The notes under the pieces are model-generated. The model did not search any database, was not told the DNA's origin, and worked only from the letters and a program-made list of their open reading frames with translations. A stretch of DNA of 64,000 nucleotides from Rhizobium rhizogenes. Its GTDB lineage: Bacteria; Pseudomonadota; Alphaproteobacteria; Rhizobiales; Rhizobiaceae. Positions within the stretch are counted from its first letter, which is position 1. Every line of letters begins with the position of its first letter. The position numbers and the translations under genes are program-made. Below are positions 9,481-12,841 of this stretch, in pieces. The stretch is from the NCBI RefSeq assembly GCF_002005205.3, contig NZ_CP019702.2, forward strand, positions 186,001 to 250,000, given 5' to 3'.

Positions 9481-10443
9481 TCAGTTGCGCAGGCCGGTGG
9501 CGACGACGGAAATCTTGAAAGCGCCGTCCAGCGTGGGATCGAAGGAAGCGCCCATCACCACATCGGTCTCTTCGCTCACCGCCTCGCGCACCAGCGTCAT
9601 CGCCTCGTCAATCTCGTAAAGCGTCAGGTCGTTGCCGCCGGAAATGGAGACCAGCGCGCCACGCGCTTCCTTCAGCGAAGGCTCACCGAGCAGCGGATTG
9701 GCAATGGCCGCAGCGGCGGCTTCAGAGGCGCGTTTTTCGCCCTTGGCCTGCGCCGTACCCATCAGCGCCCGGCCGCCATTTTTCATGACGTAGCGCACAT
9801 CGGCGAAATCCAGATTGACCAGACCTTCGCGCAGGATGAGATCGGTGATGCAGCGCACGCCAAGCGACAGAACCTTGTCGGCCGTCTTCAGTGCGTTTTC
9901 GAAGGTGGTTCCGGCGTCAGCGATGCGCAGCAGGTTCTGGTTGGGAATGACGATGACGGTATCGGCAGTGTTGAGCAGATTGGCAAAGCCGTATTCGGCG
10001 GCCCGCATGCGGCGCGCGCCCTCGAAGCTGAAAGGCAGCGTGACGACACCGACGGTGAGGATGTTCTTCGCCCGGCAGGCTTCCGCAATCACCGGGGCAG
10101 CGCCCGTGCCCGTACCACCGCCCATGCCGGCGGTAATGAAGCACATGTCGTAACCGCTCAGGTGATCCATGATCTCGTCGAGGGAATCGATCGCCGCCTG
10201 CCGGCCGACCTCGGGATCGGCGCCCGCTCCAAGCCCGCCTGTCAGCTCGGAGCTGAGCTGCACGAGCCGTGGCGCGTTGGTTTTCTTCAGCGCCTGCGCA
10301 TCCGTGTTGGCGGCGATGAAATCCACCCCGCCGATGCCCTCGGCAATCATGTTGTTGATCGCGTTGCCGCCACCGCCACCGACGCCGACGACGGCGATAT
10401 TGGGCGTGTTGCGGGCAATGGTAGCGCGCGGAGACTGGGTCAT
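9481..10443 (-). CDS. ftsZ: FtsZ paralogue lacking the C-terminal linker and tail peptide
   Basis: This 320-aa tubulin-like GTPase keeps the core of FtsZ: GGGGGNA near residue 23, the GGGTGTG signature at 108-114, and the T7-loop NLDFAD at 210-215 needed for GTP hydrolysis. It ends right after the globular domain (FKISVVATGL). The disordered linker and the conserved C-terminal peptide that binds FtsA and other partners are missing; full rhizobial FtsZ is nearly twice as long. Agrobacterium and Sinorhizobium are known to carry such short paralogues next to a full-length essential FtsZ elsewhere. It stands alone here, with its own terminator. Probable role: co-polymer or modulator of the Z-ring. 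Confidence 0.93.
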   Translation of the reverse strand: MTQSPRATIARNTPNIAVVGVGGGGGNAINNMIAEGIGGVDFIAANTDAQALKKTNAPRLVQLSSELTGGLGAGADPEVGRQAAIDSLDEIMDHLSGYDMCFITAGMGGGTGTGAAPVIAEACRAKNILTVGVVTLPFSFEGARRMRAAEYGFANLLNTADTVIVIPNQNLLRIADAGTTFENALKTADKVLSLGVRCITDLILREGLVNLDFADVRYVMKNGGRALMGTAQAKGEKRASEAAAAAIANPLLGEPSLKEARGALVSISGGNDLTLYEIDEAMTLVREAVSEETDVVMGASFDPTLDGAFKISVVATGLRN

Positions 10444-10822
10444 CGTCTTATTCTCTTTCTAAACTCATAGGGTCCCGCGCCGTTTTTGACCGCGGCACGC
10501 GAATGATCGGCGGCGTTCCCGCACTTCCTTCCTGGCGCACGAAGGAGGCTTTAACGCGTTGAATTTGCATATAAGCCTTATCGGCCGATTGCGGCCAAAA
10601 GACTTGTGCTCCAGCGGCGAAAGATGCGCTACGGCAACGTTCTCCCACCCTTCCCCCGGATGAAAACCAAACCGAATCAACTGCTTCGCTATTGAATGGT
10701 GATAGCCGAAAAGGCACGCCGTTTACACTCCATTCACTATGTTTATCTCAGTTTGGAACGAGTTGTGCCGACAAGTGTTTGCTTGCCGACAGCGCTCAGG
10801 CGCACAGAATGGAGGCAGGCAT
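10444..10822. other. divergent intergenic region, ftsZ paralogue / response regulator
   Basis: No open frame here looks like a protein. The left part must hold the ftsZ-like promoter, with a weak purine-rich ribosome site just before 10443. The right part holds a GGAAC-N18-TT match to an EcfG-type promoter at 10755-10779. I see nothing else. Confidence 0.5.
10755..10779 (+). promoter_or_regulatory. possible EcfG (general stress) promoter, weak match
   Basis: GGAAC at 10755-10759 is followed after 16 bases by TGTT (10776-10779). The alphaproteobacterial EcfG/RpoE2 consensus is GGAAC-N16/17-CGTT, so the minus 10 differs at one base. It lies 44 bases before the response-regulator ATG. Confidence 0.35.
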
Positions 10823-11266
10823 ATGTTGGCAGACGTCTTGCAAAGCGAACCGGGTTTCCGCCCGGAACAGCCACGGGTGCTGATCGTGGAAGACGAGTTC
10901 CTCATCGCCATGGATATCGAAGATTCCATTCTGCAGGCGGATGAAGATGCGAATGTCATCGGCATCGCCAACCGGCTAGATGAGGCCGTGGCGCTCGGCA
11001 GTCGCGCCGATATCGCCTTTGTCGACGTCAACCTGGCCGACGGCCAGACAGGCCCCGAGATCGGCCGGCGGCTTTCGCAGGATCACGGCGTGGTGGTGAT
11101 CTTCATGACGGCAAACCCGGAAGTGGTCGTCAATCTCGGCATCGGCGCCGGCGTGATCGCCAAGCCCGTTCCGCAGGATGCCGTGGAACAATGCCTCTCC
11201 TACGCGCTTGCCAAGCGCGCCGGCACACACGCCGTAACGCCGATAGGCATGATGGCTTTCGACTGA
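10823..11266 (+). CDS. single-domain response regulator
   Basis: The ATG at 10823 follows GGAGG and gives 147 aa. Nearly the whole protein is a receiver domain: acidic pair E23-D24 with E25 (LIVEDE), phospho-acceptor D68 (IAFVDVNLADG), T96 (FMTAN) and K114 (VIAKPVP). No output domain follows, so it probably acts by protein contact or as a phosphate sink. No histidine kinase is adjacent. A weak EcfG-like promoter upstream would place it in the general stress response. Its transcript can end at the hairpin 11298-11331. Confidence 0.88.
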   Translation: MLADVLQSEPGFRPEQPRVLIVEDEFLIAMDIEDSILQADEDANVIGIANRLDEAVALGSRADIAFVDVNLADGQTGPEIGRRLSQDHGVVVIFMTANPEVVVNLGIGAGVIAKPVPQDAVEQCLSYALAKRAGTHAVTPIGMMAFD

Positions 11267-11289
11267 GGCGATACCCAAAACTGAGGCTG

Positions 11290-11460
11290 AAAACAGAAAA
11301 GCCTGCCGCGGGAGGAGGTGCGGCAGGCTTTCTGAAAAGATGAACAGCGATATGGGAGGAGGAAAACCGCTGTCCCCGGGGCAATCCTTTGGGAGGAGGA
11401 GTAGGATCGCCCGCATTACCAAAAGGATGTGGGAGGAGGTACATCCGTTTCGATGATTGG
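11290..11460 (-). ncRNA. cluster of four CCTCCTCCC-loop hairpins (cuckoo/CcsR-type sRNAs)
   Basis: On the minus strand the 9-mer CCTCCTCCC occurs four times (complement at 11310-11318, 11354-11362, 11391-11399, 11431-11439), 37-44 bases apart. Each copy sits in the loop of its own hairpin: GGATGT/ACATCC at 11425-11446, GGC-ATCCT/AGGAT-GCC around 11379-11409, ACAGCG/CGCTGT at 11344-11373, and an 11-bp stem at 11298-11331. This is the cuckoo RNA architecture described in Rhodobacter (CcsR1-4), where four such RNAs lie downstream of a DUF1127 gene. Here a DUF1127 gene lies upstream on the same strand. The exposed motif is anti-Shine-Dalgarno-like. RNA ends and promoter are not determined; a terminator at 11685-11707 suggests either readthrough or an own promoter. 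Confidence 0.8.
11298..11331. terminator. terminal cuckoo hairpin, possibly a shared bidirectional terminator
   Basis: The stem AAAGCCTGCCG / CGGCAGGCTTT (11 bp, perfect) has a 12-base loop with the GGGAGGAGG motif. On the minus strand it is followed by TCTGTTTTC, on the plus strand by CTG. It lies 31 bases after the stop of the plus-strand response regulator, so it may end both transcripts. Confidence 0.55.
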
Positions 11461-11684
11461 AAGATAGCATTTTTCTGCGCATTTCACAGGCACAAGCTTG
11501 CAGCACAGATATGCACGAAGCGCATGGCGAATTTTACGCGCCGAGACATGGATACCGCGCGTCACATTCCTTGCCGTGACGCATGCCTCCGAGGCGGCAC
11601 AAGTCCAGAATGATGCGGCGGCCCGAAAGAACCCTGTTGCGGGCCTGAAAAACGGCAAAGGGTTTGAATGACGCCCAAAAACAA

Positions 11685-11707
11685 AAACGCCCGCGAAGCG
11701 GGCGTTT
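11685..11707 (-). terminator. Rho-independent terminator after the DUF1127 gene
   Basis: A 10-bp stem AAACGCCCGC / GCGGGCGTTT with a three-base loop is followed on the minus strand by TTGTTTTTGG. It lies 29 bases past the DUF1127 stop and would separate that mRNA, at least partly, from the downstream hairpin RNAs. Confidence 0.75.
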
Positions 11708-11736
11708 GGGCATTCAAAAGCGACTGTACCGTCTTA

Positions 11737-11883
11737 TTACTTGCCGATTGCGGCGCGGGCAACGCTGGTGATCTGGCTGCGATCAATACCGAGATCGTGC
11801 AGTTCACGGGTGCTCATGCGGCCCAGTTCGTTGATGGTCTGACGATATTTGCGCCAGTTGTTAAAGCTGCGTGCTACGTTCAT
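11737..11883 (-). CDS. DUF1127 (YjiS-like) small arginine-rich protein, 48 aa
   Basis: The ATG at 11883 follows AAAGGG by seven bases and the frame ends in two tandem TAA codons. The 48-aa product begins MNVARSFNNWRKYRQTINEL and ends VARAAIGK. The pattern aromatic-x-x-WRKYR...L..MS.REL.DLGI.R..I is the DUF1127 domain, rich in arginine. In Rhodobacter the DUF1127 protein CcaF1 binds RNA and helps mature the adjacent CCUCCUCCC-motif sRNAs; in A. tumefaciens DUF1127 proteins affect phosphate and carbon metabolism. The four-hairpin RNA cluster downstream supports an RNA-related role. I see no clear promoter in 11884-12101. Confidence 0.93.
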   Translation of the reverse strand: MNVARSFNNWRKYRQTINELGRMSTRELHDLGIDRSQITSVARAAIGK

Positions 11884-12101
11884 GACATGACCCTTTCTGA
11901 GGTTTAGGTGACGTCAGTAACGTTTTCGTTCCGGCGTCCTTTGATGCCCCCTATATGCGCTTTCTCATGCCCAATGAACAGGCAGAATAAGGCAATCCAC
12001 CCATGCGCCAGACGCAAGGGTTCCCCGTGGCGGTTTGCAGCGAAAAAGAAACCTGACTGAAATTCAGACGGTTCGCCGGCCATGCGACCGTCCCTGCCGT
12101 C

Positions 12102-12704
12102 TCAGAACTTGTAGCGGACGCCGAATACATTGGCGTTTGTGGCGCCCTTCATATTGCCCAATGTTTTGCCGCCGCCGGAACGGTGGTGAAGACGCCAGAA
12201 GAATTCCGTCGAGGAATCCTCGCTGAAGGACACGTTGATTTCCGGCCCCAGATAAAACAGGACATTGGCATTGCCGTCGTCCTTGATTTCCTGTTCGCGC
12301 TCGCGGCCCGGCTGCGCATCCGTGACAAGGCTGAGGCCGGCGGTAAAGCTCGGCGTGATGAACAGCCGCTCTCCAAGCCTGATCTGCTCGTAACGGGCGA
12401 CCGGGCCTGCCCAGACCTCGCCGGTGAAGCCTTTGCCAAACCTGGCGGCAATGCCGATCTCGCCGCCCAGTTTTACATTGCCGATGCGGTAGGGATAAAA
12501 CTGGTAGCCGCCCCCGATAATGGCGTTTCTTTCATATTCCACGGGAATGAGCGCCGCACTTTTCAGCATGTCTTCCTTCGTCATGGCGCCAGCGAAACCG
12601 AATATAGCCTCGCTCGTCTCCGAAGCCATATCCTCAGACGCGAAAGATGATGTCGCGGCCAGTGCGATCATGGCCGTCAAAGACAGACGTGCTGCAATAT
12701 TCAT
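12102..12704 (-). CDS. outer-membrane beta-barrel protein, possibly PagL-like lipid A deacylase
   Basis: With the start at 12704 (ribosome site CAGGAGT) the protein is 200 aa, with a signal peptide ending near SSFAS. The rest alternates polar and aromatic residues like beta strands and ends in the outer-membrane signature YKF. The C-terminal FWRLHHRSGGGKTLG recalls the H-x-S of acyloxyacyl hydrolases (PagL). I do not see a clear third catalytic glutamate after it, so the enzyme assignment is tentative; a plain porin-like barrel is the alternative. It stands alone between the DUF1127 gene and a gene remnant. Confidence 0.6.
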   Translation of the reverse strand: MNIAARLSLTAMIALAATSSFASEDMASETSEAIFGFAGAMTKEDMLKSAALIPVEYERNAIIGGGYQFYPYRIGNVKLGGEIGIAARFGKGFTGEVWAGPVARYEQIRLGERLFITPSFTAGLSLVTDAQPGREREQEIKDDGNANVLFYLGPEINVSFSEDSSTEFFWRLHHRSGGGKTLGNMKGATNANVFGVRYKF

Positions 12705-12841
12705 TTTGCTACTCCTGAACAAAGCCCGCTTTTACCCAGCCGTCCTCATAGGCATATTCTCGGAAGGCGAACATACCGTTACCGAACACAATTAATTCAA
12801 CTTGTCCGGAAATGGCCGAAAAACCGGCGTTTTCTCCCGCC

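Follow-up and report, generated by a model that had tools for sequence, protein, structure and literature searches.

Two putative LsrB/VtlR-controlled transcription units, a short DUF1127 gene and a four-hairpin RNA array, in Rhizobium rhizogenes

A gene for a 48-aa DUF1127 protein and an array of four hairpins, each with the 9-mer CCTCCTCCC in its loop, lie on the same strand of a 64-kb stretch of Rhizobium rhizogenes DNA (hereafter the window, the whole 64,000 nucleotides analysed). Judging from sequence, we propose with a probability of about 0.72 that the two would form independent transcription units under one regulator, one for a small RNA (sRNA) that would block ribosome-binding sites (RBS) and one for a small protein. 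The hairpins, a terminator between gene and array, an LsrB/VtlR-type box ahead of each half and a conserved spacing from box to predicted start are seen in the DNA itself, as follows (window coordinates).

10739-11266, plus strand: response-regulator ORF, converging on the array
11294..11334, minus strand: hairpin 4, loop motif at 11310-11318, T-rich 3' side, inside the ar14 match
11342..11375, minus strand: hairpin 3, loop motif at 11354-11362, inside the ar14 match
11379..11412, minus strand: hairpin 2, loop motif at 11391-11399, inside the ar14 match (11294-11418)
11418..11454, minus strand: hairpin 1, loop motif at 11431-11439, 5' of the ar14 model match
11461..11466, minus strand: predicted -10 hexamer of the array, TATCTT, assigned by comparison with upstream sequences in relatives
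11502..11524, minus strand: LsrB/VtlR-type box of the array, TGCG-N6-GCAT-N3-TG-N3-T, its GCAT 60 bases before ATCGAA at 11454
11675..11707, minus strand: intrinsic terminator of the DUF1127 mRNA, 10-bp stem at 11707-11685 and T-rich tail
11737..11883, minus strand: short DUF1127 gene (48 aa, PF06568), stop codon counted in
11940..11957, minus strand: putative -10 region CATATAGG of the DUF1127 gene, its transcript predicted to start at ATCAAA (from 11945); assigned by sequence and by comparison with relatives and the promoter of the array
11994..12016, minus strand: LsrB/VtlR-type box of the DUF1127 promoter, TGCG-N6-GCAT-N3-TG-N3-T, its GCAT 61 bases before ATCAAA at 11945

Near the locus, at 9481-10443, the window also encodes an FtsZ homologue of 320 aa with Tubulin and FtsZ_C domains, which is probably an additional FtsZ of the kind found in Agrobacterium.

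The first unit would start near 11945 and end near 11677, giving an mRNA of about 270 nt for the short DUF1127 protein, and the second would run from about 11454-11458 to about 11290 and give a four-hairpin sRNA of the cuckoo/alpha-r14 type of about 165 nt. By analogy with relatives of this locus, the LysR-type redox regulator LsrB (the same as VtlR) would bind the box some 60 bases 5' of each start and switch both units on, and the four identical CCUCCUCCC loops would pair with G-rich RBS and so stop the translation of many mRNAs.

The four-motif array and its RNA family

An exact-match search found CCTCCTCCC four times in the window, all on the minus strand at 11310-11439 with start-to-start distances of 40, 37 and 44 bases, and nowhere outside the locus; 0.61 copies were expected, and none of 100 shuffles reached four. 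Genome-wide, the lone 9-mer is not enriched, with 58 occurrences where the reversed pattern has 60; it is clusters of the motif, not single 9-mers, that carry meaning. The stretch 11292-11458, read on the minus strand, folds into four hairpins with one motif in each loop at -66.3 kcal/mol (z = -6.7), a value that none of 200 shuffles equalled. Motif search and folding thus bear out the first-pass annotation, which had described four 9-mers in hairpin loops of their own, 37-44 bases apart, downstream of a 48-aa DUF1127 gene. Hairpin 4, with its T-rich 3' side, probably doubles as the terminator of the sRNA.

The structure is conserved in relatives. We aligned 32 arrays with four exact motifs each, the window and 31 relatives, out of a set of 42 loci described below; seven of the 42 lacked four exact motifs and were left out (L098, L103, L115, L117, L139, L148 and L158), as were L143, L147 and L157, which looked close to included rows, and L099 with its additional motif. 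All 128 motifs of the 32 arrays fall in hairpin loops; once the letters outside the motifs have been shuffled, 221 of 1280 do. When the structure of the window is laid on the alignment, 86.8% of cells are paired, against 37-52% with the partners slid, and both-sided changes in paired cells number 75 against a shuffled mean of 28.9; the number of further pair types in the same 32 rows is not above that of shuffles (equalled in 437 of 500). Hairpin 2 is weaker, with 61% of cells paired and stem columns that slip in the alignment. RNAalifold on the MAFFT alignment did not recover it, which is why the window's own structure was used for the paired-cell counts.

Hairpins 2-4 match the Rfam family ar14 (RF02344) over the full model length with 96 bits (cutoff 58.8). 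Like alpha-r14, they are three hairpins with CCUCCUCCC unpaired, and the window adds a fourth hairpin 5' of the model. The CcsR1 model (RF02791), which has two hairpins, scores 35.2 bits on hairpins 1-2, below its cutoff of 65.3. The four consecutive hairpins with a loop motif in each are also what distinguishes the family RFM SmelA099, which, compared by its description, shares four hairpins, one CCUCCUCCC per loop and variable stems and shows no known difference (PMC3927594). RNAs of Rhizobiales with three or four CCUCCUCCC hairpins were published in 2011 (PMC3927594), and the window array is a copy of a known RBS-covering sRNA family beside a tiny-protein gene. The earlier expectation that the RNAs would be missed entirely by annotation did not hold, since Rfam ar14 matches at its gathering threshold and covers three of the four hairpins. 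The genome holds three ar14 loci above cutoff, that of the window counted in, and the other two have GCAA in place of the GCAT of the box. Directly after another ar14 copy of the same genome lies a match to the C1_109596F thermometer (L001:1640-1858; Rfam, 126.5 bits, cutoff 125).

The best-studied point of comparison is NfeR1 (PMC7143759, PMC10746234). NfeR1 of S. meliloti depends on LsrB for activation, and its three anti-Shine-Dalgarno (aSD) loops redundantly silence mRNAs at their start regions, those of ntrB and of transporters among them (PMC10746234). The window array shares these loops, fits the whole alpha-r14 model with hairpins 2-4 and would share activation by LsrB (PMC10746234); unlike alpha-r14/NfeR1, it has four hairpins instead of three and adjoins a DUF1127 gene. 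Since the loops of the window are identical to those of NfeR1, the same action may be expected of them, and the proposal that they block ribosome sites gains weight as the tested mechanism of a relative (PMC10746234). Among 45 long ORFs of the window, four have start regions that pair with the RNA at -10 kcal/mol or better, a count that we do not treat as evidence.

The DUF1127 gene, its terminator and the linkage in relatives

The 48-aa ORF at 11737-11883 on the minus strand matches PF06568 (DUF1127) with 60.2 bits against a cutoff of 23.3. Together with the ar14 match, this supports the view of the first-pass annotation that a cuckoo/CcsR-like, anti-Shine-Dalgarno RNA stands next to a DUF1127 gene. 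Five DUF1127 matches occur in the genome, and the best 80 of at least 443 relatives are 75-100% identical to the window protein. Nor does the gene seem too short for most annotation pipelines, as had been claimed: among 30 listed of the 300 plasmid matches, four are in unannotated records, and of the remaining 26, 23 carry a DUF1127 label.

The relatives were sampled as 80 named DUF1127 loci, the best of at least 443 confirmed ones and hence a biased sample, and counts over loci are not independent because the loci are related by descent. An array of at least two motifs lies within 2.5 kb downstream of the DUF1127 gene in 42 of these best 80, upstream in 19 and in neither place in 19; no opposite-strand array was found within 2.5 kb in any of the 80, and the reversed-motif control gave 0. 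Loss of the array in relatives that keep the DUF1127 gene, which the first-pass annotation had named as refuting its reading, is seen in part of the best 80 of at least 443 (19 without an array within 2.5 kb), while 61 of them have one. The upstream arrays (L100, L118, L121 and 16 other loci) carry two or three motifs in a different 5' context. Within the genus, 26 stretches chosen around known arrays or DUF1127 genes, with an upstream reach of about 1-1.5 kb and searched by tblastn with the window protein, comprise 17 with array and DUF1127 gene, eight with the array only and one with DUF1127 only.

On a wider scale, motif triples at 31-61 base start-to-start spacing are present in 27 of 41 genomes (reversed pattern, 0), namely in all 25 of the window's genus, its own genome counted in, and in two of 16 others of the order. 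A search of 289 genomes of the class, which as an exact-motif search says little on degenerate arrays, detected the exact triple motif in no genome but that of the window, while the reversed pattern gave three matches in two genomes. An operon-type arrangement is seen at L028:1320-1810, in another family of the order, where the first of six exact motifs, accompanied by several inexact ones, comes about 45 bases past the stop of a DUF1127 gene and no obvious terminator intervenes. Two DUF1127-linked arrays, L065 and L067, have three exact motifs and a gap at the place of the fourth; their genomes also hold a second array (L064 and L066, with three and four exact motifs), near which no DUF1127 gene was found.

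Around the locus, the scanned stretch has three terminator-like sites where 1.1 were expected. Of the 42 loci whose array lies downstream (from the best 80 of at least 443), 40 have a terminator-like hairpin and T-run past the DUF1127 stop, whereas 21 of 415 random segments pass the same test; at -14 kcal/mol the figures are 40 of 42 and 3 of 415. The two loci that fail are L095 and L109, the former nonetheless having the hairpin of its neighbours. In L095, L096, L099, L104, L115 and L119 the loop of this terminator hairpin contains TCCTCCC, that of L099 (2685-2710) holding the full CCTCCTCCC, so that the DUF1127 mRNA may end in a free-standing cuckoo-type hairpin. In L139, L141, L154, L155 and L157 the loop holds shortened forms of the motif.

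LsrB/VtlR-type boxes and promoter regions

The VtlR box GCAT-N3-TG-N3-T is a published consensus (PMC7486931), and TGCA-N6-GCAT has been published for the NfeR1 promoter (PMC10746234). The former lies upstream of the predicted start of each half of the locus, so that both would belong by sequence to the LsrB/VtlR regulon. Short DUF1127 genes of A. tumefaciens are reportedly regulated by LsrB (Kraus 2020). VtlR of this species binds and activates abcR1, atu1667 and vrsA (PMC7486931), and in Brucella three DUF1127 genes are under positive VtlR control (PMC12595884).

Window-wide, the short box is not enriched (13 against 9.9 expected). An extended pattern, TGCR-N6-GCAT-N3-TG-N3-T, was framed after the two window sites and the TGCA-N6-GCAT of NfeR1, the TGCR-N6 extension being ours. 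Its count in the window (2 against 0.14 expected, reached in one of 100 shuffles) is partly circular because of this framing; its count in the 5.48-Mb genome, ten against 0 for the reversed pattern, is less so. Two of the ten are those of the locus, one precedes ar15 RNAs, one precedes a second DUF1127 gene and six are in ORFs of at least 120 aa. The third starts 71 bases 5' of the first of two tandem ar15 RNAs, presumably of the AbcR family, and the fourth, on the first contig, is overlapped by a 203-aa ORF on the opposite strand. At least one match to the extended box is present in 99 of 101 genomes of the family, a presence count.

The boxes recur in relatives. For the 42 downstream arrays (from the best 80 of at least 443), a short box stands 5' of 34, against 41 of 2073 random segments, and an extended one in ten array promoters, against none of the 2073; inspection by eye of the eight boxless arrays showed some one-base near misses and some in which the first motif had been wrongly anchored. 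A box precedes the DUF1127 gene in all 61 array-linked loci and in seven of the 19 array-free ones among the best 80 of at least 443. Of the 32 arrays that allowed the measurement, 11 have GCAT 60 bases ahead of ATCGAA and 21 have it 61 bases ahead; among the 46 DUF1127 promoters that did so, GCAT and start are 61 bases apart in 39 and 38-114 in the others. The 100 bases 5' of the array are conserved in relatives, with the GCAT box and a -10-like element, and box, spacing and ATC(G/A)AA start are common to both promoters. A scan of 11150-12200 for the sigma-70 consensus gave 0 promoters, so the -10 assignments are those suggested by the alignment.

The pairing of boxes is not universal. In the genus of the window even a loosened box, GCA(T/A), is absent from five of 17 array-linked DUF1127 genes, two of 17 DUF1127-linked arrays and four of eight lone arrays. 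The other four of these eight arrays, which have no DUF1127 neighbour, keep the box, 74 or 75 bases ahead of the first motif. Arrays upstream of DUF1127 have a box within the preceding 160 bases in one of 19 cases (best 80 of at least 443).

Alternative readings and wider meaning

The locus could instead be an operon of the CcaF1-CcsR type, the array being the 3' UTR of the DUF1127 transcript from which RNase E and the DUF1127 protein would release the sRNA. In Rhodobacter, ccaF1-CcsR1-4 is a single RpoHI/RpoHII transcript cut by RNase E (PMC10253847, PMC8625941), and the association of DUF1127 with CcsR-like RNAs bears the name CIN1 (PMC10253847), a definition that the window, with its short DUF1127 gene and CcsR-like RNAs, fits. 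As in Rhodobacter sphaeroides, the DUF1127 gene shares its strand with the CCUCCUCCC hairpin RNAs and lies 5' of them, an order kept in 42 of the best 80 of at least 443 loci, with no array on the opposite strand; L028, with its six motifs about 45 bases past the DUF1127 stop and no obvious terminator, also fits an operon. However, where Rhodobacter has one processed transcript (PMC10253847), the window has the terminator at 11685-11707, found likewise in 40 of 42 relatives, and a promoter-like region conserved immediately 5' of the array, which by sequence argue against co-transcription, and eight of the 26 same-genus stretches have an array without a DUF1127 neighbour. The analogy thus fails on the terminator and on the LsrB/VtlR-type box that gene and array each possess, and it was too much to say that the locus mirrors ccaF1-CcsR1-4. 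To add that it does so down to the number of hairpins was loose: CcsR1-4 are four RNAs, the CcsR1 model has two hairpins and the Rhodobacter RNA RS0680a has two stem loops (PMC3927594). The terminator and the promoter region of the array's own led us to reject the operon as main reading, and we consider it unlikely. Read-through past the terminator is possible, and so is a role for the DUF1127 protein as processing partner, by analogy and in trans only.

A link between protein and RNA is indeed a matter apart from the two-unit reading, with which a further view is compatible: both halves may be LsrB targets that history has left side by side, perhaps by duplication of a promoter, their products being functionally unconnected. 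That both promoters have the same box, spacing and ATC(G/A)AA start would fit such an origin, as would the arrays and DUF1127 genes found apart, and short DUF1127 proteins of Agrobacterium bind the sensor kinase PhoR (PMC12501420). Against it stand the frequent linkage (a same-strand array within 2.5 kb in 61 of the best 80 of at least 443 loci, with 0 for the reversed-motif control) and the action of Rhodobacter CcaF1 on CcsR RNAs, which it binds (PMC10253847). On balance we give this view slightly less than an even chance. That the array acts as a decoy, its loops binding ribosomes or 16S rRNA in place of mRNA, is suggested by the C-rich loops and had been implied by the first-pass wording that they could titrate ribosome sites. 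The CCUCC of the loops has, as we take it, the same sense as the 16S anti-Shine-Dalgarno, and would therefore pair with Shine-Dalgarno sites of mRNAs and not with the 16S end. Since NfeR1 likewise targets mRNAs (PMC10746234), we hold a decoy to be very improbable.

The two-unit reading also bears on VrsA of A. tumefaciens C58. A scan of that genome with the VtlR consensus gave, besides abcR1 and atu1667, one more site, on the linear chromosome (PMC7486931). This VrsA (L4) site is flanked by the 3' ends of atu4669 and atu4670 and belongs to a transcript that is about 300 nt long and runs antisense to atu4670, and deletion of vrsA alters two transport loci and denitrification genes (PMC7486931). 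The window box at 11994-12016 is placed similarly, between the 3' ends of the ORFs 12102-12722 (minus strand) and 11668-11907 (plus strand), here on the second contig, and the transcript predicted behind it has about 270 nt, the array only about 165. Compared by description, the two differ in that VrsA was published as an antisense sRNA (PMC7486931), while the predicted window transcript encodes a DUF1127 protein. From this box placement and length, and judging by its published position, VrsA of C58 may be the DUF1127 mRNA.

Taken further, CIN1 of the Rhizobiaceae would have come apart into two transcripts, each driven by LsrB/VtlR from a matching promoter, such that one redox signal would call up both a four-loop, RBS-blocking RNA and a DUF1127 protein; VrsA would be the message for this protein, and the array a further direct target that had been overlooked. 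We give this wider picture even odds. The RNA and its pairing with DUF1127 have already been described, and what looks new is that RNA and gene would be transcribed separately, both answering to one stress regulator. The twin-box arrangement was not found in the literature searched, the closest papers lying outside that coverage. The Rhodobacter operon model needs a test before it is transferred to the Rhizobiaceae, where a single regulator appears to govern both halves of the locus, and if VrsA is a coding mRNA, the reading of the vrsA deletion phenotype changes.
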